Shown here one piece after another: positions 3,608-17,520 of a DNA stretch of 22,895 nt. The position numbers and the translations under genes are program-made. The stretch lies in the IMG/VR virus record IMGVR_UViG_3300007523_001329, positions 1 through 22,895 of that record; one strand, given 5' to 3'. Source of the DNA: a virus. Every line of letters starts with the position of its first letter. Within the stretch, counting starts at the first letter, position 1. The notes below the pieces were generated by a model. It worked only from the letters and a program-made list of their open reading frames with translations, made no database searches and was not told the DNA's origin.

Positions 3608-6400
3608 ATGAACATAAGCAATCAGATTTTATCTGACTTAACAACTTACATGAAATATGCAAAATATCAACCAGAATTAGGTCGCCGAGAGACTTGGGAT
3701 GAATTGGTTACTAGAAATATGAATATGCATATAAAACGATACCCCAGCCTCACAGATGAAATAAGAAAAGCATATAAATTTGTATATGATAAGAAAGTTT
3801 TACCATCAATGCGAAGCCTACAATTCGCCGGCAAATCAATTGAAATATCGCCCAATAGAATATATAATTGTCTGGCAAGAGAACAAGAATTTATAACATC
3901 GACTGGTGTTATGTCATTTGATGATTTCAATGATGGAGACGAAATTTCTGTTTTAAGTCATCTTGGTAATTGGAAAAGGGCGACGGTGAAGTCATATGGG
4001 AAGCAATTACTTAATCGAATTACATTTGTTAGAGGAAAATCTAAATATGAAGTATATGCTACAGATTCTCATAGATGGGTATTATATGACGGGGCGGAAA
4101 CGACGGAATTAAAACCGAAAGATATAATTTACCCATCTCAGAAAACTCAGAATTTTGACTATGATTCCGCGGACCCTTTCGAGAAATTATATTGGGCATA
4201 TGGATATGTATATGGGGATGGGACGGTAACATCCAATGGAACATCTAAATACTCTATGGTTAGGTTATGTGGAGAAGAATCCAATAGATATCGTTATAGG
4301 TTCGAAGAACTCGGATTTAAAACATCTACATCATTATCATTGGATGGTGATTTTATGGCATATACTGGAAAGTATTTAAAAACATTACCGGAAGTAGACA
4401 AAACTGATTTAAATTTATTAAAGGCATTTGTTTCTGGTTTGCTCGATGCGGACGCATATAAAAACCCGGATTGGTACGGTAATAATACACTAGGGAAATA
4501 TCGAAGTATCCTACAACATTCAGCTGAAACCGTCGATTTTTTGAAAACGTCTCTTCCGCTGATTGGATATTATATTACAAATATAAAAGATATTGCGGGA
4601 CACGAAACAGCATATGGCATACGTCCTGACGGAGCAGCATCTATCCACATAACAAATCATATTGGCAGTAGACGAAATACCGCTTGGAGTGTAAAGAAGA
4701 TAGAACAAACAGAACGATATGAAACAGTGTGGTGTCTTGAAGTAGAAGATGATCATTCATTTATGTTTCCATCCGGATTAGTAACTGGAAATTGCGCGTA
4801 TTTACCCATCGATGATTTCCGGGCATTTAGCGAAACAATGTTTCTTTTATTGGGAGGAACCGGAGTTGGGTACTCTGTACAATTCCATCACGTCGATCAA
4901 TTGCCGGAAATACGAAAACCCAACCCAAACAGGACGCGCCGGTTTTTAATAGGAGACTCAATTGAAGGATGGGCGGATACCGTAAAGGTTCTTATGAGAG
5001 CATATTTTGAAGGAAAATCAACACCAATTTTTGATTATTCGGATATTAGACCAAAAGGTGCACAATTAATAACATCTGGTGGAAAAGCACCCGGTCCTCA
5101 ACCTCTAAAGGATTGTGTACATAACATCACAAAGATTTTAAATGCTAAAGAAAATGCCAGTAAGTTAACATCATTGGAAGTCCACGATATAATCTGTTTC
5201 ATAGCAGATGCGGTATTGGCAGGCGGAATACGTAGAGCGGCTCTGATTTCACTATTTTCATTTGATGATGGATCAATGTCGACTTGTAAGTTTGGAAATT
5301 GGTGGGAATTAAATCCACAACGTGGTAGGTCAAACAATTCAGCTGTCATTATGCGACATCGTGTTAAGAAACGTGAATTCTTGACATTTTTCGAACGTGT
5401 GAAGAACAGCAGAAGTGGAGAACCTGGTGTGTATTTTTCTAATGATAAAGATATGGGTACAAATCCATGTGCTGAAATTTCTCTTAGACCAAATCAATTT
5501 TGCAATCTGACGGAAATCAACTCATCCGATGTAAAAGATCAAGCCGATCTGAACGATCGAGCCATCACCGCCGCTTTCCTAGGAACGTTACAAGCAGGAT
5601 ATACCGATTTTCATTATCTCAGAGACGTATGGAAGCGAACGACCGAAAAGGAAGCATTAGTCGGTGTTGGTATGACTGGAATTGCAAGTGGTACGGTATT
5701 CCCCTTGGATTTAGAAGAAGCGGCCAGAGAAGCATTGAAAGAAAATACCAGAGTCGCAAAATTAATTGGAATCAATTCAGCCGCTAGAACAACGACGGTT
5801 AAACCATCAGGTACATCATCGTTGGTACTTGGTTGCTCTTCAGGAATTCACGCTTGGCATGCTAAATATTACATTCGACATATTAGAGTCGGTAAAAACG
5901 AAGCAATATATCAGTATTTGGCACTAAATCATCCAGAACTTGTTGAAGATGAATACTTTAGACCACAAGAACAAGCGGTAATTAAGATTCCACAAATGGC
6001 TCCAGATACTGCAATTACTAGAGAAGATGAAACAACATTATCTTTCTTAGAACGTGTGGCACGCTGGAATGATGAATGGGTCGCAACCGGCCACCGGAAG
6101 GGACCAAACACACATAATGTATCAGCTACAGTTTCAGTCAAATTAGATGAATGGGATATGGTCGCAGAGTGGATATGGAAGCACAGGTCTAAAGTTAATG
6201 GATTGAGTTGTTTACCTCATAATGATTCAGACCACTCGTATATGCAGGCACCATTTCAAGAATGCACAAAAGCCGAATATGTGAAAATGATGAAATCACT
6301 AACAGAGGTGGAACTAATTAACATACGTGAAGTAGAAGATAATACCACATTGAGCCAGGAACTCGCATGCGCAGGTGAAGATGGGTGCGAAATTATATGA
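3608..6400 (+). CDS. nrdJ: Class II ribonucleotide reductase with intein
   Basis: Predicted monomeric adenosylcobalamin-dependent ribonucleoside-triphosphate reductase, which would supply dNTPs for phage replication. The 930-residue precursor contains a 308-residue intein (residues 88-395); the spliced protein would be 622 residues. Seen in the exteins: the substrate-side cysteine C396 after splicing junction RIYN|CAYLP; FDYSDIRPKGAQL and SGGKAPGPQPL; AGGIRRAALIS; NPCAEISL with N619, C621 (thiyl-radical Cys) and E623; FCNLTEIN with C632; and KPSGTSS. The 11-residue spacing from C621 to C632 equals C408-C419 in the Lactobacillus leichmannii enzyme. A cysteine pair at the C-terminus (C921, C927) is in the position of the redox pair that takes reducing equivalents. 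The product is shorter than the bacterial enzyme (about 740 residues), mainly at the N-terminus. Activity requires cobalamin and intein splicing. Confidence 0.94.
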   Translation: MNISNQILSDLTTYMKYAKYQPELGRRETWDELVTRNMNMHIKRYPSLTDEIRKAYKFVYDKKVLPSMRSLQFAGKSIEISPNRIYNCLAREQEFITSTGVMSFDDFNDGDEISVLSHLGNWKRATVKSYGKQLLNRITFVRGKSKYEVYATDSHRWVLYDGAETTELKPKDIIYPSQKTQNFDYDSADPFEKLYWAYGYVYGDGTVTSNGTSKYSMVRLCGEESNRYRYRFEELGFKTSTSLSLDGDFMAYTGKYLKTLPEVDKTDLNLLKAFVSGLLDADAYKNPDWYGNNTLGKYRSILQHSAETVDFLKTSLPLIGYYITNIKDIAGHETAYGIRPDGAASIHITNHIGSRRNTAWSVKKIEQTERYETVWCLEVEDDHSFMFPSGLVTGNCAYLPIDDFRAFSETMFLLLGGTGVGYSVQFHHVDQLPEIRKPNPNRTRRFLIGDSIEGWADTVKVLMRAYFEGKSTPIFDYSDIRPKGAQLITSGGKAPGPQPLKDCVHNITKILNAKENASKLTSLEVHDIICFIADAVLAGGIRRAALISLFSFDDGSMSTCKFGNWWELNPQRGRSNNSAVIMRHRVKKREFLTFFERVKNSRSGEPGVYFSNDKDMGTNPCAEISLRPNQFCNLTEINSSDVKDQADLNDRAITAAFLGTLQAGYTDFHYLRDVWKRTTEKEALVGVGMTGIASGTVFPLDLEEAAREALKENTRVAKLIGINSAARTTTVKPSGTSSLVLGCSSGIHAWHAKYYIRHIRVGKNEAIYQYLALNHPELVEDEYFRPQEQAVIKIPQMAPDTAITREDETTLSFLERVARWNDEWVATGHRKGPNTHNVSATVSVKLDEWDMVAEWIWKHRSKVNGLSCLPHNDSDHSYMQAPFQECTKAEYVKMMKSLTEVELINIREVEDNTTLSQELACAGEDGCEII
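3869..4792 (+). mobile_element. Intein with LAGLIDADG homing endonuclease
   Basis: In-frame insertion of 924 bp (308 residues, C88 to N395 of the precursor) in the reductase gene. The N-terminal residue is Cys (CLAREQEF), as in class 1 inteins. Block B shows the TxxH motif (T152 to H155). Block F is VWCLEVEDDHSF, and the end is GLVTGN, followed by Cys as the +1 extein residue. The penultimate residue is Gly instead of the usual His, which occurs in some inteins but may slow Asn cyclisation. Two LAGLIDADG-type motifs are visible, AYGYVYGDGTV (about 197-207) and FVSGLLDADAY (about 274-284), so this is a full-size element that may still be able to home. The host site is the most conserved catalytic cysteine of the reductase. 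Junctions were placed from the restored motif RIYNCAYLP. Confidence 0.95.
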
Positions 6401-6432
6401 TATTGAATTTTGTTACAATTAAGAGGAAATAG
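6397..6432 (+). other. Eleven-codon mini-ORF between RNR and polymerase
   Basis: ATG at 6397 overlaps the reductase stop as ATGA. The frame runs 11 codons to TAG at 6430-6432, two bases before the proposed ATT start of the polymerase at 6435. It spans the Shine-Dalgarno of the polymerase. The peptide resembles nothing known. If used, it would bring terminating ribosomes to the polymerase start, a coupling arrangement. It could also be coincidence. Confidence 0.3.
6421..6427 (+). promoter_or_regulatory. Ribosome-binding site that fixes the polymerase start
   Basis: AAGAGGA lies seven bases upstream of the ATT codon at 6435 and is one of the clearest Shine-Dalgarno sequences in the window. No ATG, GTG or TTG in the polymerase frame follows at usable distance; the first TTG is at 6627, nearly 200 bases on. 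This site is the main evidence that translation begins near 6435. Confidence 0.6.
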
Positions 6433-6434
6433 AT

Positions 6435-8948
6435 ATTTACCAAAACATTTTTATAAAAAGAACGAAGCAAGGTAATATAGTTAATTTATGGGATGATCAG
6501 AAAGGATTCTCTCAGTTTAGGTTCGATAGATATTGCTACATAAAAGACCCACAAGGTGAGTTTACAAGCATTTACGGTGATCCATGCAGTAAAACATATA
6601 GTTGGGAGGGCGAGAGTGAAGATGATTTGTTTGAACATGATGTAAATCTTACGACTCGTGTTCTTGTTGATCTATATGTAGATTCCGATACACCATCGGT
6701 TAATCATACATTACTTAACTTTGATATTGAAGTTGAAATGATTACAGGATTGCCCGACCCAACAAAAGCTGAACAGGGAATCACATCAATAGCAGCTCAT
6801 GATTCAGTGTCAAATTCCTACGTTGTTTTTATTTTAGATGAAGATAAAGTAGTTAAGAATAGTAAATCTGGAGATCGTGAAATACGATCCTTTGTTGATG
6901 AATACGATCTATTGATGGATTTTGTTCGATATTGGGAAACCATCCGTCCGACAATCATAACGGGCTGGAATTGTGATAAATTCGATGTCCCATATCTTTA
7001 TAATAGGCTTGTTAAAATATGCGGCACGTCAAATGCCAATAGACTTTCTGAAATAGGTGAAGTATCATATTCACCATTTAAGGGTAAGTTTCAAATCGCT
7101 GGGGTTAGTTGTCTTGATTATATGATTTTGTATAAGAATTTCTCATCCTCGGAATCCGTATCATATTCCCTTAACGCAATTGCAATGAAGGAATTGGGCC
7201 GCGGTAAAATTGAATATAAAGGAAATCTTGATCAGCTGAAACGTGATGATATTGAAAAATTCATAGAATACAATATTACCGATGTTGAACTCGTAGTTGA
7301 AATTGATAGGTTGAAAAAATACATTGATTTGGCTCGCAGTATTTGCCACGCGGGCCGCGTACCATATGAAGAGATTGTATATTCATCTAAATATCTTGAA
7401 GGGGCTATTCTAGCTTTCTTGAAACAAAAGAATATGGTAGCATGTAATAAGATGAAACACGCACAATCCAAAATGAAGGAAATCAAAGAATCAGGCGAAA
7501 AGGGATTCGCTGGTGCATTTGTAAAAGAACCAGTAGCTGGTAAATACAATTGGATATATGATTTGGATTTAACTTCATTGTATCCATCTATTATAATGGG
7601 ACTTAACATTTCACCTGAAACTAAAATTGGTAAAATAACCAATTGGAATATTGAGAAGTTCGTCAAAGGAACGTGTGATGAATGGTTCATTGGTGGGAAA
7701 GTATGGACGAACGAAAAGCTCAGAGCTACCCTCGATGAGATGAATATATCAGTAGCATCAAATGGTGTGATGTATCGGCAAGATGTTCGAGGTTGTATTC
7801 CTGAAATTCTTAATACTTGGTTCGACCAGAGAAAGGTATATCAGGCCAAAATGGAAGATTTAGATATAGGATCCGCCGAGTACAAATTCTATGACCAACG
7901 GCAAGAACTACAGAAAGTATTACTTAATTCACTTTACGGAGTCTTGGGGCTCCCGGTATTTCGTTTTTATGATCTGGATAATGCTCTAGCGGTGACAGCG
8001 ACTGGAAAAGATGTCATTCTGAATACAGCTAAAATGGCAAATCTAAAATATAACAATGAATTGGGAGTTGTTGATGAACATGTAAAGTACATAGATACGG
8101 ATTCAATTTATGTCGCCGCTGAACCTATTTTAAAGCATAGATTTTCCGATTATGAAAAATGGGATGATGCTCGTATCGCTGCTGAGGTATATAACATCGC
8201 TGATGAAATGCAATCATATTTGAATAATTTTTATGATACAATGGCGAAGCGGTTTTTTAACGTAACTGAACATCGGTTCGAAATTAAAAAAGAAACGGTA
8301 GCGCGCCGAGCTATTTTCATTACAAAGAAACGATACGCACAGTGGCTTATCATGTCAAAGGGAAAGGAAACGGATAAATTGAACGTAAAGGGGTTGGATT
8401 CGGTAAGATCAAGCTATCCAAAGCTCTTTAGAAAGTTTATGGCTACAATCTTAACAGAAATTTTAAACGATTCGACCCGCGAAACCATAACGGATATGAT
8501 AGTTATATTTAAGAAAGAGTTATATCAATCAAGTCCATTGGATGTTGCAAAGAATTCAGGATTAGGAGAATGGGATAAGTATATTGTAACGGATAAGAAC
8601 AGGTTATTCGAATTCAAGAAAAAAACCCCGGCACATATCAAAGCTGCATTTGCATACAACACGTTAATGGTTCATTTTAAGTGCCCATTTAAATACGAAC
8701 CAATTAAGGAGGGTGATAAAATAAAATGGGTATATCTCACAGACAACTCATATGGATTGGATGCTCTTGCGTTTAAGGGCGACAATGATCCTCCTGAAAT
8801 TATGGAATTAATTAATACATATGCAGATAGGAATGCTATGTTCAAAAAAGAATTGCAAACAAAACTACAACAATTCTACGACACATTGAAGTGGGGAACA
8901 TTAATCAGTGATAAAACATCGGCTGATAAATTCTTCTCATTTAATTAA
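6435..8948 (+). CDS. T4-type family B DNA polymerase, probable ATT start
   Basis: Replicative DNA polymerase with proofreading. Counting from the ATT at 6435 (837 residues): exonuclease motif I NFDIEVE with D97 and E99; motif II GWNCDKFDVPYLYNRL with D184; motif III YNITDVELV with D283; polymerase motif A DLDLTSLYPSII with D378; motif B KVLLNSLYGVLG with K494 and Y501; motif C YIDTDSIYV with D554 and D556. The C-terminus ADKFFSFN resembles the clamp-binding tail of T4/RB69 gp43. The frame is open back to 6423, and residues 2-64 match the family N-terminus (IYQNIFIKR; FTSIYGDPCSK is like FDIYGKPC of RB69), so starting at the TTG at 6627 would remove a conserved domain. No ATG is available in frame; ATT 6435 sits seven bases after AAGAGGA. 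A base error turning ATG into ATT is the main alternative. The function is very secure; the start is an inference. Confidence 0.92.
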   Translation: MYQNIFIKRTKQGNIVNLWDDQKGFSQFRFDRYCYIKDPQGEFTSIYGDPCSKTYSWEGESEDDLFEHDVNLTTRVLVDLYVDSDTPSVNHTLLNFDIEVEMITGLPDPTKAEQGITSIAAHDSVSNSYVVFILDEDKVVKNSKSGDREIRSFVDEYDLLMDFVRYWETIRPTIITGWNCDKFDVPYLYNRLVKICGTSNANRLSEIGEVSYSPFKGKFQIAGVSCLDYMILYKNFSSSESVSYSLNAIAMKELGRGKIEYKGNLDQLKRDDIEKFIEYNITDVELVVEIDRLKKYIDLARSICHAGRVPYEEIVYSSKYLEGAILAFLKQKNMVACNKMKHAQSKMKEIKESGEKGFAGAFVKEPVAGKYNWIYDLDLTSLYPSIIMGLNISPETKIGKITNWNIEKFVKGTCDEWFIGGKVWTNEKLRATLDEMNISVASNGVMYRQDVRGCIPEILNTWFDQRKVYQAKMEDLDIGSAEYKFYDQRQELQKVLLNSLYGVLGLPVFRFYDLDNALAVTATGKDVILNTAKMANLKYNNELGVVDEHVKYIDTDSIYVAAEPILKHRFSDYEKWDDARIAAEVYNIADEMQSYLNNFYDTMAKRFFNVTEHRFEIKKETVARRAIFITKKRYAQWLIMSKGKETDKLNVKGLDSVRSSYPKLFRKFMATILTEILNDSTRETITDMIVIFKKELYQSSPLDVAKNSGLGEWDKYIVTDKNRLFEFKKKTPAHIKAAFAYNTLMVHFKCPFKYEPIKEGDKIKWVYLTDNSYGLDALAFKGDNDPPEIMELINTYADRNAMFKKELQTKLQQFYDTLKWGTLISDKTSADKFFSFN

Positions 8949-8987: not shown

Positions 8988-9683
8988 ATGAATAAAAACA
9001 AATTTGAAGGTTTCTTGAATCGCTATAACTTGGGCGGTGAAGTCGAGTCGGTAATGATAAATGTGGAAAACGATACAGTATCTACTCGTATGATTTCCGA
9101 TGATAAAACGTTATTGGGAACGGTTTCTATGAAAGAATCCGCTCTTCCAGTTGGTAGATATGGTGTATACACCACATCTCAATTAAAGCAATTACTATCG
9201 GTATTAGATAATAATATAGAAGTTACGGCAAATGATAGTTCACTTGTGTTCACAGATGAAGTATCAAAAATGCAATATATGCGCGCTCAGGAATCAGTAA
9301 TTCCAAATGTGCCTGATCTTAAAGACCTTCCAAATTTTGATGTTGAAATCACATTGGATGATGAGTTTGTAAATAGATTCATCAAATCAACAGGTGCACT
9401 TTCTGATTCGGATAAGTTCACATTCACATCAAAGAACGGAGTACATGAAATTGTTCTTGGATTCGCTACAATCAATACGAATAGGATTTCTATTAAGGTA
9501 GATGCCAAAGTCGAAAAGGATGTAGATTCAATATCATTTTCAGCTAAGTTCTTGAAAGCTATTTTGGTTGTAAATAAGGGAAGTACACAATCTTCGCTTA
9601 AGATCGCAACAGGCGGGCTTTGTGTTGCATCATTCGCAGGTGGTGATTATACATCTGAATATTTCTTAGTCGAAATCGAATAA
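8988..9683 (+). CDS. Sliding clamp, T4 gp45-like
   Basis: Predicted processivity clamp that encircles DNA and tethers the polymerase. The 231 residues match T4 gp45 (228). The pattern fits two tandem clamp folds: a mixed strand/helix N-terminal half with the helix YTTSQLKQLLSVL (about 61-73), a linker rich in Pro (VIPNVPDL, about 104-111), and a second half ending in the strand SEYFLVEIE, comparable to the YVVALE end of gp45. Sequence identity to T4 is low and the call leans on length, pattern and position between the polymerase and the clamp-loader genes. The 39-base leader is A-rich with AAAGG about ten bases before the ATG and holds repeated AAGTA units; in T4, clamp and loader genes are under RegA translational control, but no RegA gene was recognised here. 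Confidence 0.85.
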   Translation: MNKNKFEGFLNRYNLGGEVESVMINVENDTVSTRMISDDKTLLGTVSMKESALPVGRYGVYTTSQLKQLLSVLDNNIEVTANDSSLVFTDEVSKMQYMRAQESVIPNVPDLKDLPNFDVEITLDDEFVNRFIKSTGALSDSDKFTFTSKNGVHEIVLGFATINTNRISIKVDAKVEKDVDSISFSAKFLKAILVVNKGSTQSSLKIATGGLCVASFAGGDYTSEYFLVEIE

Positions 9684-9687
9684 AGTT

Positions 9688-10914
9688 ATGTCATTTTGGG
9701 ATGTAGATGTTAAACCAACCGAGTTCAACTTCGATTTGGAAAAAAAGAAGTTTATTGAAAATATGAACTATTTGTTTTCAATGTCGGTTGAAGAACAAAC
9801 GTTGTATAAGAAATGGGTAGAATGGAATGCTGATTTGGGTAAAACATATCCAATGAAATCATACTTGGGTGTGTATTTTGATGAAATTTGGAAACCAACC
9901 GACATTAATGACGTACAGAAAACCATTTCAGAAATAGAAGCACTTGATCCATATGTTGATGTAGTGACTGAGCCAAAAGATGCAACTAAATGGACGGAAA
10001 TCCGAAAGTTAATTCATACGATGGAATTTACAGCCAATCCTGGACGTAATTTGAAATGTTACGTCCGGGATTCAGTGACTGGAAAGATTTTAGGTCAAAT
10101 ATGCCTAGGTTCCGACGTAACCGCATTGAAAGTTAGGGATGATTATATCGGGTGGACTCGGGACAATCGCTTCAAGGATGGTAAATTGAATCACACAACG
10201 ATTGCGACTACTATTGTGGCAACCCAACCGCTTGGATTCAATTTCTTAGGTGGTAAATTGATTGCGGCATTGGCAACATCACCAACAATTAGAAATGCTT
10301 GGAAGGAAAAATATGAAAATGAATTAATAGCGGTAGGTACAACTTCGTTATATGGTATTCATTCTCAGTATAATGGAATTCCTCATTTTAAAACGTTAGG
10401 TGTGACAGCTGGTAAAATGGCAATTAAACCAGATGATTTAGTATATGAGCCATGGCATCAATGGTTAAAGGAAAATGATAATACATGGTATTCCACAGAA
10501 ATAACAGAAGAACGTGCACGAAACGGAGAAAATATGTACGGAAAAGAATCAGGCCGTTCTGGTCCAGTAAGTGGTATTAAACAAAAGATTCTTGGTAGAA
10601 TTTTCAAACATCTTGGCATTAAAGGTTCTCAATATCATCATGGGTTTCAAAGAGGATTCTATTTCGCTATGATGTACGATAATGGTAATGATTTCCTTCG
10701 CGGCAATATAGAACAATCCGATTTAATAATGAAGAAGAAATTTACGGAAGGAGATGAATATACTATAAATTGGTGGAAACCAAAGGCAATACGACGCTAT
10801 ACTAATATGATAGAACAAAAACGAATTAAGGACGAAACGCTATTCTATATTGATGCTATTGGTATTTCGTGGGAAGAAATGAAACAAAGGTACTTGAAAG
10901 ATGTTGGGAGATAA
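9688..10914 (+). CDS. DUF4338/DruA-like protein
   Basis: The 408-residue product appears to carry a DUF4338-type domain, the family that includes DruA of the Druantia defence system and many phage proteins of unknown role. Core seen at about 128-245: GKILGQICLGSDVTALKVRD, then YIGWTRDNR, a PLGFNFLGGKLIAAL helix, VGTTSLYGIHSQYNG, and FKTLGVTAG. This follows the family order of G-x-ISFGS, RD-x-WIGW-R, a hydrophobic helix and an aromatic/G-rich end. An N-terminal helical region (1-110) and a long C-terminal extension rich in Tyr, Trp and Lys (about 250-408) lie outside the core. It starts four bases after the clamp stop and overlaps the next gene by 14 bases. A GNAT-like fold shared with Mom is a possible relationship but is inference. 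Its biochemical activity is unknown. Confidence 0.6.
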   Translation: MSFWDVDVKPTEFNFDLEKKKFIENMNYLFSMSVEEQTLYKKWVEWNADLGKTYPMKSYLGVYFDEIWKPTDINDVQKTISEIEALDPYVDVVTEPKDATKWTEIRKLIHTMEFTANPGRNLKCYVRDSVTGKILGQICLGSDVTALKVRDDYIGWTRDNRFKDGKLNHTTIATTIVATQPLGFNFLGGKLIAALATSPTIRNAWKEKYENELIAVGTTSLYGIHSQYNGIPHFKTLGVTAGKMAIKPDDLVYEPWHQWLKENDNTWYSTEITEERARNGENMYGKESGRSGPVSGIKQKILGRIFKHLGIKGSQYHHGFQRGFYFAMMYDNGNDFLRGNIEQSDLIMKKKFTEGDEYTINWWKPKAIRRYTNMIEQKRIKDETLFYIDAIGISWEEMKQRYLKDVGR

Positions 10915-11417: not shown

Positions 11418-11891
11418 ATGACAAAGCAATATTCAACTAAGACTATATCGTTCTTTGATCTCATTGATATCTATGATGTAGATACAACGGATTTGTGGTG
11501 TGAAGCGTTAACGCTTGAGGACGTTCCATATACGAGGATAGACTTACCCGCACATACACTATCAGATGGTACTCAACTTATATGTAGAAGTAGACAGGCA
11601 GGGCTATGGCGTCCAGGTATGGTAAAAGAAGATGTAGTAAACGTTCTTAGGGAAAGGGCGACTAAGTATTGGAGAAAGGATCCTGATGAAACCCCCAAAA
11701 TGGTATACGTACACTCTTCCCGAATCAATCTTATGGGATTCCGAAACAGTTGCACTCGCTCTACTGTAGTCCCAGAAGAACGATACGTTACAATGGTTGA
11801 TGGGACGGTGGTACGAGTAGCAGACTACATACCTCCCAATATAGGATATATTATTTCCACGCGAGTGGCCTTCGAATGGGACAAACCATGA
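11418..11891 (+). CDS. Protein of unknown function bracketed by repeats
   Basis: A 157-residue protein that is not recognised. It is soluble and mixed alpha/beta, has three Cys residues that do not form an obvious metal site, and shows no signal peptide or membrane segment. Seen: an N-terminal SFFDLIDIYDVDTTDLWCEAL, a basic middle (ERATKYWRKDPDE near 78-90) and a beta-rich C-terminal part ending FEWDKP. The start ATG at 11418 follows the AAAGGAA carried by the upstream repeat copy, with a rather long spacing. A perfect 14-base palindrome AAGCGTTAACGCTT lies in the coding region at 11503-11516. The stop overlaps the Mom-like start as ATGA. Its position between the two repeat copies suggests it was inserted into, or captured by, the junction between the HNH-like gene and the Mom-like gene. 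Confidence 0.75.
   Translation: MTKQYSTKTISFFDLIDIYDVDTTDLWCEALTLEDVPYTRIDLPAHTLSDGTQLICRSRQAGLWRPGMVKEDVVNVLRERATKYWRKDPDETPKMVYVHSSRINLMGFRNSCTRSTVVPEERYVTMVDGTVVRVADYIPPNIGYIISTRVAFEWDKP
11503..11516 (+). other. Perfect 14-bp palindrome
   Basis: AAGCGTTAACGCTT is its own reverse complement. It lies in the coding sequence of the unknown 157-residue protein. It may be a binding site for a dimeric protein or chance. Confidence 0.3.
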
Positions 11892-12502
11892 TATTTTGTG
11901 TAAATCAAAAGGATAAGGTATCAAACTTAATAAAGGAATTCCATTATTCAGGCCGATCAGTTAACTCTATTTGTACATTTTCTTGGCATCTACCAAAGGA
12001 TTCTCCTTGGGGAATTATTCCAGGTGAATGTGTGGCAGGTGCAGTATTTTCATCACCTCCAACCAGATGGTCTGAACCCGTAATCGAATTACTTAGATTG
12101 GTAAGAACAGAAATGGAAGGAATTCCACCATTAACAGGTCTCCTCTCAGAGTCTCTTAAATACCTTAAAACAAATACAGAACATGACCTTATCGTATCGT
12201 TCGCAGATAGTACACAAGGACACCACGGTGGTATATATCAAGCTGCATCGTGGAAGTACCACGGAAAGCGCGCAAAGGCAAATGATGGATTAATTATTGA
12301 TGGTGTATTTGTGCCGGGAAGAACGTGTAATGCTAGATATGGTACACGAAGTCCTATCAAATTAAAAGAACAACGTCCCGATTTAGATATAGAAGCTCAT
12401 TACGATGAAGGAAAATACTTATATTGGAAACCGTTAAATCGCAGCGGAAAGAAAAAGGCACAACGGTTAAAATTAGAATCTAATAAATATATAAAAGAAT
12501 AA
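11888..12502 (+). CDS. Mom-like DNA modification protein (GNAT-type fold)
   Basis: Predicted member of the phage Mom-like family. Mu Mom converts adenine in DNA to a carbamoylmethyl form that protects against restriction, and related phage proteins are often annotated as Mom. Counting from 11888 (204 residues): FHYSGR near 18-23; GECVAGAVF near 46-54, the usual core strand; IELLRLVR near 66-73; and SFADSTQGHHGGIYQAASW near 104-122 followed by KYHG, which is the family signature. The C-terminus is basic. The ATG at 11888 is preferred to the one at 11876 because it forms an ATGA overlap and because the truncated paralogue at 11350 aligns from this Met. The substrate base and the added group cannot be read from sequence. 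A second, more diverged copy begins at 22550. Confidence 0.78.
   Translation: MIFCVNQKDKVSNLIKEFHYSGRSVNSICTFSWHLPKDSPWGIIPGECVAGAVFSSPPTRWSEPVIELLRLVRTEMEGIPPLTGLLSESLKYLKTNTEHDLIVSFADSTQGHHGGIYQAASWKYHGKRAKANDGLIIDGVFVPGRTCNARYGTRSPIKLKEQRPDLDIEAHYDEGKYLYWKPLNRSGKKKAQRLKLESNKYIKE
11918..11946 (+). repeat. Direct repeat, copy 2 (29 bp)
   Basis: Second copy of the 29-base repeat also found at 11386-11414, here in frame in the intact Mom-like gene, coding for VSNLIKEFHY. One mismatch (TTC in place of TTT for Phe) is synonymous. Confidence 0.85.
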
Positions 12503-13742: not shown

Positions 13743-14354
13743 ATGATGAAAAACACAAGAAATTCAATACAATGGGGCTCGATGAACAATCAAACGAACG
13801 AATCATTGCCGGCCGCAAATAACGACGTAAATGTGGCAGAAAATGTAATCCATTTTTGTTCAGCAGTCACAGACGAATCGGTTGCAAAGTTTAATGCAGA
13901 GCTCAGAAAGCTTGACCTAAAACTACAACAACAAACTATAGCATATGGATGTTCTCCTATTGTAATCAAGCTATATATCAGCTCACACGGTGGAGATGTA
14001 ATGGCCGGCTTTTCGGCGATGGACACAATATTGAATTGTAAGTCTCCAGTCGAAACATACGTCGACGGTTATGTCGGTAGCGCTGGAACATTTATGAGTA
14101 TAGTAGGCACAACTCGATATATGTACAAACATTCACATATGCTGATTCATCAATTAGCATCCGAATTTTGGGGCAAGATGGATGAATTTGAGGACAATAA
14201 GGAAAATATGGATAGAATACATAATATGATTAAAAACTTCTATTTAGAATATGCGAAATTACCACCGGAATTGTTGGATGAAATATTGAAGCATGATTTA
14301 TGGTGGGATGCTGAAACTTGCCTTTCATTTGGACTCATTGATTACATTGTATGA
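13743..14354 (+). CDS. ClpP-like serine protease
   Basis: Predicted S14-family peptidase. Seen: KLYISSHGGDVMAGFSAMD (76-94), the ClpP strand-turn-helix with the SxGG element; the nucleophile S113 in YVGSAGTFMSI; H136 in MLIHQ; and a third residue, probably D185 in KHDLWWDAETCLSFGLID, where ClpP has DR(D)xxMSAxEAxEYGLID. The 203 residues agree with ClpP. The first 35 residues are non-homologous and polar; in-frame ATGs at 13746 and 13782 are alternatives. No ClpX/ClpA-type unfoldase is in the window. Phage ClpP-like proteins often mature the capsid, yet this one sits inside the clamp-loader operon, which leaves a regulatory or processing role open. The next small ORF overlaps its stop (ATGATGA). 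Confidence 0.88.
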   Translation: MMKNTRNSIQWGSMNNQTNESLPAANNDVNVAENVIHFCSAVTDESVAKFNAELRKLDLKLQQQTIAYGCSPIVIKLYISSHGGDVMAGFSAMDTILNCKSPVETYVDGYVGSAGTFMSIVGTTRYMYKHSHMLIHQLASEFWGKMDEFEDNKENMDRIHNMIKNFYLEYAKLPPELLDEILKHDLWWDAETCLSFGLIDYIV

Positions 14355-16032: not shown

Positions 16033-16605
16033 ATGAATAAGAAGAAAAAGATATTGCTCTTGTCAGACGACCTCAGGATGTCGTCGGGCATCGCGACTGT
16101 GAGCAGACAACTAGCAATGGGTACTGTGCATAAGTATGATTGGGTTCAGCTAGGTGCGGCAATCAAGCATCCCGAACACGGAAAAATGATTGATATAAGT
16201 GAAGATGTTAGAAAGAAAACAGGAGTAGAAGATGCTAATATACGAGTATTGGCAAATTCCGGATACGGTAACGCTGATTTGCTCCGGCATTTAATCAACG
16301 TGGAACGACCCGATATCATTTTACATTTTACAGATCCAAGATATTGGATTTGGTTATATGAAATCGCTCATGAAATACGTGAAATGGTTCCATTGACATT
16401 CCTCACAATTTGGGATTCACTACCTTCTCCAACATACAATGCTAACTTTTACGCATCGTGTGATTCATTGTTTTGTATTTCTAAACAGACATATGGAATA
16501 GTGAATCGAGTTCTCCACAATGAATTCGGCAATGAACTCAATATTTTAAGAGAAGGATACATGTCGTTGGAAAAGACATGGGACGATAAAAATTTATGGC
16601 TATAA
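16033..16605 (+). CDS. GT-B glycosyltransferase, N-terminal part
   Basis: First half of what appears to be a GT4-like glycosyltransferase. The 190 residues include the N-terminal Rossmann-type acceptor domain: KILLLSDDLRMSSGIATVSR (6-25) with the Gly-rich turn, DIILHFTDPRYWIWL (94-108) and LTIWDSLPSPTYN (about 122-134). It ends in a TAA at 16603-16605. The next ORF begins at 16609 in the same reading frame and supplies the donor-binding domain, so a single in-frame stop divides the enzyme. The start has AAGG five to six bases upstream, better than most in this window. It may be a separate subunit, a nonsense mutant or a sequencing error. Confidence 0.85.
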   Translation: MNKKKKILLLSDDLRMSSGIATVSRQLAMGTVHKYDWVQLGAAIKHPEHGKMIDISEDVRKKTGVEDANIRVLANSGYGNADLLRHLINVERPDIILHFTDPRYWIWLYEIAHEIREMVPLTFLTIWDSLPSPTYNANFYASCDSLFCISKQTYGIVNRVLHNEFGNELNILREGYMSLEKTWDDKNLWL

Positions 16606-16608
16606 CGA

Positions 16609-17520
16609 ATGCAGAATATTACAAACGATAAAAGAGACACAAGAGTTTATTACTGCCCACACGGCATGAATTTTGATTGGTATTATCCCATAACAAAACC
16701 AGATGAACTGGAAAATCTTAACAAATTCAGAATAGATTTACTAGCAAATGCGGGAAAGGAAAAAACCTTCATTCTATTGTGGATTAATAGAAATGTTAGA
16801 AGAAAACAACCAGGTGATGTTATATGGGCGTATAAAGCATTCTGTGATAGTATTCCAAGAGAAGAAGCCGACAAGTGTTTATTGGTTATGCACACTCAGC
16901 CAATTGATGATAATGGAACTGACCTATATGCAGTTAAAAGCAGAATGTGTCCAGATTATGATGTAGTATTCTCTGCCGGGCAAATGGATGAAACGCATAT
17001 GAACTATCTTCACAACGCTGCGGATGTTACAATTAATATTGCCAACAATGAAGGCTTTGGGTTGACTACGTGTGAATCATTAGCGGCAGGTACTCCAGTC
17101 ATCGTGAACGTAACAGGCGGACTTCAAGACCAATGTGGATTTTCACAAAATGGAAAAGAACTAACCGCTGATGATTATATTGAAATAGGTTCTCTTCATA
17201 ATTGGAGAGAATGGGAAAATAAAGTGGAACATGGCGAATGGGTAATACCCGTTTGGCCCAGAGCACGATCATTGAACGGATCACCTCCAACTCCATATAT
17301 TTCAGATGATAGGGTTGATATCGAAGACGTAGCAGAGGCAATTAAAAAATGGCATTCTCTAACAGCAGATGAGCGAAAGAGAAAAGGATTGCTTGGGCAT
17401 GCTTGGTTAAAAGCCGGAAAGTTAAATCAAGAATATATGTGTGATGTTTTGATGAAGGGGATAGATGAAACTCTTGAAAACTTTAAACCACTACCAAGAT
17501 TCAAATTATATAAGGTATAA
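16609..17520 (+). CDS. GT-B glycosyltransferase, C-terminal donor-binding part
   Basis: Second half of the split glycosyltransferase, 303 residues. It begins with the linker YYCPHGMNFDWYYP (14-27), typical of the position between the two GT-B domains, then FILLWINRNVRRKQP (54-68) and the nucleotide-sugar-binding signature NEGFGLTTCESLAAGTPVIV (147-166), with the E-x7-E-like acidic residues E148 and E156. It would need the upstream half to form a complete active site. The ATG at 16609 is three bases past the stop of the first half and has no Shine-Dalgarno, so termination-reinitiation or readthrough would be required. Combined length without the stop would be 495 residues. The donor sugar and acceptor are unknown. 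Confidence 0.85.
   Translation: MQNITNDKRDTRVYYCPHGMNFDWYYPITKPDELENLNKFRIDLLANAGKEKTFILLWINRNVRRKQPGDVIWAYKAFCDSIPREEADKCLLVMHTQPIDDNGTDLYAVKSRMCPDYDVVFSAGQMDETHMNYLHNAADVTINIANNEGFGLTTCESLAAGTPVIVNVTGGLQDQCGFSQNGKELTADDYIEIGSLHNWREWENKVEHGEWVIPVWPRARSLNGSPPTPYISDDRVDIEDVAEAIKKWHSLTADERKRKGLLGHAWLKAGKLNQEYMCDVLMKGIDETLENFKPLPRFKLYKV

Follow-up and report, generated by a model that had tools for sequence, protein, structure and literature searches.

Genes and features of the polymerase locus

The window, meaning the whole stretch of viral DNA analysed here (22,895 nucleotides, IMG/VR record IMGVR_UViG_3300007523_001329), carries a DNA polymerase gene between genes for a ribonucleotide reductase and a DNA polymerase processivity factor. 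The features on which the analysis draws are as follows.

3608..6400, plus strand: class II ribonucleotide reductase, intein-containing (Pfam); its stop lies 34 nt before the ATT and is a possible source of re-initiating ribosomes
6421..6427, plus strand: Shine-Dalgarno (SD)-like AAGAGGA, 7 nt before the ATT, with an AAGAGG counterpart in the relative L011
6434..6434, plus strand: U at -1, which could pair with A37 of the initiator tRNA (extended codon-anticodon pairing)
6435..6437, plus strand: ATT, putative initiation codon of the DNA polymerase, ungapped against the Met of homologues, with ATT/ATC recurrent there in relatives
6435..8948, plus strand: DNA polymerase, family B, T4 gp43-like, 837 codons (PF00136, PF03104; phrog_262; RB69/T4 gp43 PDB chains)
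6627..6629, plus strand: TTG, first canonical in-frame start, 64 codons after the ATT and not accepted as the true start
8988..9683, plus strand: DNA polymerase processivity factor (clamp), phrog_223, E 2.4e-10, ATG start, used as a control gene

A Pfam search of the polymerase matched PF00136 and PF03104, phrog_262 covers residues 7-835 of its 837, and its PDB matches are RB69 and T4 gp43 chains. Polymerase and 3'-5' exonuclease domains and full-length homology identify the product as a family B polymerase of the T4 gp43 type. The intein match in the upstream ribonucleotide reductase, to PF14890, covers residues 127-392 and falls short of the curated cut-off.

After a TAA at 6420, the polymerase frame runs uninterrupted from 6423 to 8948, and its first ATG, GTG or TTG codon is the TTG at 6627. 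The complete list of near-start codons before that point is ATA 6429, ATT 6435, ATT 6447, ATA 6453, 6477 and 6540, and ATT 6570. ATA 6429 was rejected as a start, being just 1 nt from the SD; ATT 6435 follows AAGAGGA by seven bases (AATAGAT), and the remaining genes of the window show hardly any SD or none. Read from ATT 6435, the protein begins I-Y-Q-N-I-F-I-K, and its relatives in other phages, which begin M-Y-Q-N-I-Y, M-Y-Q-A-V-Y or M-Y-K-N-I-Y, align to it with no gap. The Met of L002, L003 and L006 (the last being Microcystis phage Mel-JY01), each with an M-Y-Q/K start, falls on the exact position of the ATT, and in the closest relative, L011 (75% amino acid identity), this position is occupied by a TTG behind a similar SD, AAGAGG(T). 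A start at TTG 6627 was likewise rejected, as the protein would then lack conserved residues of its N-terminal domain. A sequence-only reading of this DNA had claimed the lack of a canonical start, the seven-base spacing, the match to the Met of homologues and the conserved coding upstream of 6627, and all four held when the frame was re-read and the N-termini aligned. At the sequence level, a near-cognate codon replaces ATG, GTG or TTG at a conserved N-terminus, and ATT 6435 seems to be the real polymerase start, at which initiation would take place.

Several other genes of the window were observed in passing. Two in-frame ORFs at 16033-17520, with a single TAA (16603-16605) between them, resemble one glycosyltransferase-like protein, the second half matching the later part of phrog_2170; this may be a split gene, a case of stop read-through or decay. 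A Mom-family protein (PF25680) at 11876-12502 suggests DNA base modification, and a head maturation protease/ClpP-like match at 13743-14354 lies inside the replication module. No phage tRNA was found in the window, and megablast of the window against sequenced phages returned no match.

Recurrence of ATT and ATC starts among relatives

Polymerase loci were gathered by profile searches and one pattern scan. Among 123 distinct loci with a readable start, 80 begin with ATG, 28 with TTG, 10 with ATT and one with ATC, and four have an ATG one codon upstream. With L177, a product of the pattern scan, set aside and the window and L012 counted once because they are one phage, the unbiased share of ATT/ATC is about 9/120 (~8%), with ATG making up about two thirds and TTG about a quarter of the roughly 120 loci. 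Targeted ATH scans added L178 and L179 (ATC) and L180, L182 and L185 (ATT), which were counted as lineages and excluded from the frequency.

All ATT/ATC loci are metagenomic, and in every one of them a stop 4-8 codons upstream closes the frame with no canonical start in between. Several contain an internal TTG at codon 15 or 20, and L180 an ATG 13 codons in, the use of which would lose conserved residues. The loci fall into nine start-region groups: the window, the L093 clade (found in five metagenomes), L107, L145, L148/178/179 (ATC), L165, L180, L182 and L185. On a 111-tip protein tree, from which L177 and L185 were left off as too short, parsimony gives nine changes for ATT/ATC versus other codons and 23 changes between start codons overall. 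The relatives around L165 and L107 have TTG, and those around the L093 clade and L182 have ATG. Weak support at some tree nodes leaves the count of origins approximate; this reconstruction gives a minimum of six, with eight or nine probable. The AUU start, which had been taken as a one-off, is instead recurrent for this gene in the phage group. Each record holds one polymerase, and no second copy was found in any of them; thus the AUU-start gene is not a spare copy. In the L180 record (G012:C1:11260-13996), the ATT-start polymerase is present as two adjacent pieces of one gene, matching query residues 1-547 and 552-834.

Within clades, the weak start is conserved. Pairs from the L093 clade differ at 10-29% of 4-fold sites, except L093/L166 (4%), with few amino acid changes, and despite this divergence the ATT, the SD and their spacing are constant. 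L095 carries a 30-bp tandem duplication approximately 12-72 nt upstream of the ATT, including the end of the upstream gene, and its SD and ATT unit is intact. The ATC clade L148/178/179 has kept its ATC while 16-19% of 4-fold sites changed.

Gene specificity of the weak starts

Neighboring genes in the same loci served as controls. The clamp starts with ATG in 93/93 aligned N-termini, and in one more an ATG is close by; the corresponding figures are 49/49, with six more close by, for a DruA-like gene and 16/16, with two more close by, for a gp44-like clamp loader. No TTG, ATT or ATC was found among the aligned clamp, DruA-like and clamp-loader starts of these loci. As the neighbors are ATG-only, the trait is specific to the polymerase and does not characterise these phages at large. 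Together with the presence of ATT/ATC at the same codon in other divergent lineages, this pattern exceeds coincidence.

In the window, the DruA-like protein (PF14236) is encoded at 9688-10914, directly 3' of the clamp gene. Its homologs are present in the polymerase loci of many relatives, and it is therefore perhaps a replication gene rather than a defence gene. Shortly 3' of the polymerase of one relative lies a GroEL-like chaperonin gene (L097:5590-6300, phrog_5725).

Sequence context of the start codon

The -1 base was compared after groups had been collapsed by start-region similarity. U occupies this position in 8/9 ATT/ATC groups (the ninth has C), 14/17 TTG groups and 12/43 ATG groups. 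The difference from ATG groups gives p = 0.001 for ATT/ATC and p = 5e-6 for all weak starts, in a comparison where overlapping upstream stops partly set the -1 base of the ATG genes. U at -1 can pair with A37 of the initiator tRNA, and such extended pairing reportedly helps weak starts.

A strong SD, AAGGAGGT, precedes the ATT in two groups, the L093 clade and L182, and genes near the L093-clade polymerases have no SD. No SD of at least 5 nt upstream was found for any of the 74 ATG-start polymerases scored. The AAGAGGA of the window is weaker than AAGGAGGT, and several ATT/ATC relatives have no SD. Leaders have weak structure or none. A hairpin operator like that of T4 was considered for the window and rejected, as shuffled sequences fold as well as 6380-6480 (z 0.90), and an Rfam search yielded no matching element.

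Host of the phage group

The element TAnnTTTG, which we take to be the Bacteroidota -7 element, occurs within 80 nt upstream of 38/113 polymerases, versus 6.2 expected; directly upstream of the window polymerase it is absent. The only bacterial genome contig with a relative belongs to a Flavobacteriales MAG, in which the polymerase starts with ATG. Microcystis phage Mel-JY01, the relative with a named host, shows an identity of just 47%. A bS21 gene was found in 4/5 records of more than 200 kb searched, and published work assigns phages with bS21 to Bacteroidetes (PMC9723584). The hosts of this phage group are probably Bacteroidota, and the phage of the window would by extension share them. 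A phage IF3 gene was found in none of 17 related records, most of which are fragments; host IF3 would act regardless.

Interpretation

We consider it reasonably probable that the polymerase is translated from AUU 6435 as a weak start that caps its synthesis. Recurrent, independent ATT, ATC or TTG starts that are confined to the polymerase suggest throttling of its synthesis at the start codon. The position, recurrence, gene specificity, context and conservation of the codon are read from sequence, and we infer initiation itself, a low rate and selection for that rate. Under this model, fMet-tRNA would initiate the polymerase at AUU 6435, and the weak codon would keep polymerase output below that of the clamp, with its ATG, and of the other replication proteins. 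The weakness of the codon would be partly offset by U at -1, by the SD in some lineages and by the barely structured leader, and the low rate of polymerase synthesis may be useful and may be what is selected. That the AUU caps polymerase translation, as initially suggested, is still a deduction, one that recurrence and gene specificity have strengthened. Dependence of the polymerase on initiation-factor balance, the other part of that suggestion, is conjectural.

To our knowledge, AUU and AUC starts are established for very few genes, and we found no report of one in a phage replicative DNA polymerase in the open-licence literature. In Escherichia coli infC, encoding IF3, an AUU start limits expression (Butler 1987; Brombach and Pon 1987, cited in PMC9845219). 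infC resembles the window polymerase in its AUU codon, in near-cognate pairing with the initiator tRNA and in the limit on expression. It differs in that its own product rejects AUU, which closes a feedback loop, while no part in choosing start codons is known for a DNA polymerase. Streptomyces sigR is reported to have a GTC start that lowers translation through IF3 (PMC5472188). It is likewise a case of a rare start codon outside infC, but in a cellular sigma factor and as one codon, unlike the several separate origins in a phage polymerase seen here. The homologous gp43 of T4 and RB69 is restrained at translation initiation as well, by autogenous repression in which gp43 binds an upstream RNA hairpin (PMC3014915); there the operator is a hairpin, whereas the leader in the window is barely structured.

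Re-initiation, or translational coupling, is compatible with a capping AUU, and we regard it as possible, though not likely, that the codon is mainly served by ribosomes leaving the upstream gene, for which a poor start codon is tolerable. The gap from the upstream stop to the ATT is 34 nt in the window, 12 nt in the L093 clade, 4 nt in L107 and 14 nt in L182, and assays in E. coli have addressed re-initiation at non-canonical codons (PMC2268962). This account fits less well in L145, L148/178/179, L165 and L185, where a TAnnTTTG element lies 29-45 nt upstream of the ATT/ATC; because of this Bacteroidota-type element, the polymerase there probably leads its own transcript.

It is also conceivable, but in our estimate unlikely, that the AUU is used and merely tolerated, with little polymerase needed and ATG drifting to TTG, ATT or ATC for no selected benefit. 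Frequent start-codon change on the tree and the commonness of TTG at the polymerase start are what such drift would produce. However, the L093 clade keeps its ATT and strong SD while synonymous sites change, even though ATT to ATG needs one step only, and the SD and U at -1 that accompany ATT/ATC look like maintained intermediate initiation.

A more specialised proposal, which we hold to be decidedly doubtful, is that the weak AUU/AUC, together with a strong SD in some lineages, gates the polymerase to specialised ribosomes such as those lacking bS21. The usual ribosomes of Bacteroidia disregard SDs, and strong SDs are read by those that lack bS21 (PMC9976891); an SD with AUU could therefore make the polymerase depend on bS21-lacking ribosomes. 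The L093 clade and L182 resemble Bacteroidota rpsU, the bS21 gene, in having a strong SD where host ribosomes normally ignore SDs (PMC9976891). The strong SD, AAGGAGGT, is seen in these two groups; the window has only the weaker AAGAGGA and a host assigned by extension, and several ATT/ATC relatives have no SD. If true, gating by specialised ribosomes would tie replication to phage takeover of translation.

Use of another start, either an upstream frame entered by frameshift or the internal TTG 6627 or ATG 6738, is very improbable. Gene callers restricted to ATG, GTG and TTG would place the start at 6627, but internal starts lose conserved N-terminal residues, and six further ATT/ATC loci also lack a canonical start in their first 25 codons. 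Frameshift entry through the 11-codon ORF that begins at ATG 6397 was rejected, since no slippery heptamer was seen there by eye. That the ATT is a sequencing or assembly error for ATG or TTG is scarcely credible even with TTG in the nearest relative (L011), since a second metagenome yielded a contig (IMGVR_UViG_3300032462_000062) that matches the window without a difference for 4,432 bp spanning the start site. That contig was also the sole match, with ATT, in a scan of all IMG/VR viral contigs that left the third base of the codon as N, and ATT/ATC occurs on several further contigs, unrelated to one another and drawn from separate metagenomes.

A weak AUU that caps polymerase synthesis is the reading we prefer, and its consequences extend to the phage group. 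Standard gene callers truncate the N-terminus of the polymerase in these phages. The repeated origin of weak starts in one gene beside ATG-only neighbors amounts to a natural experiment on weak start codons, and it provides a connection, open to testing, of phage replication with unusual translation initiation in Bacteroidota.
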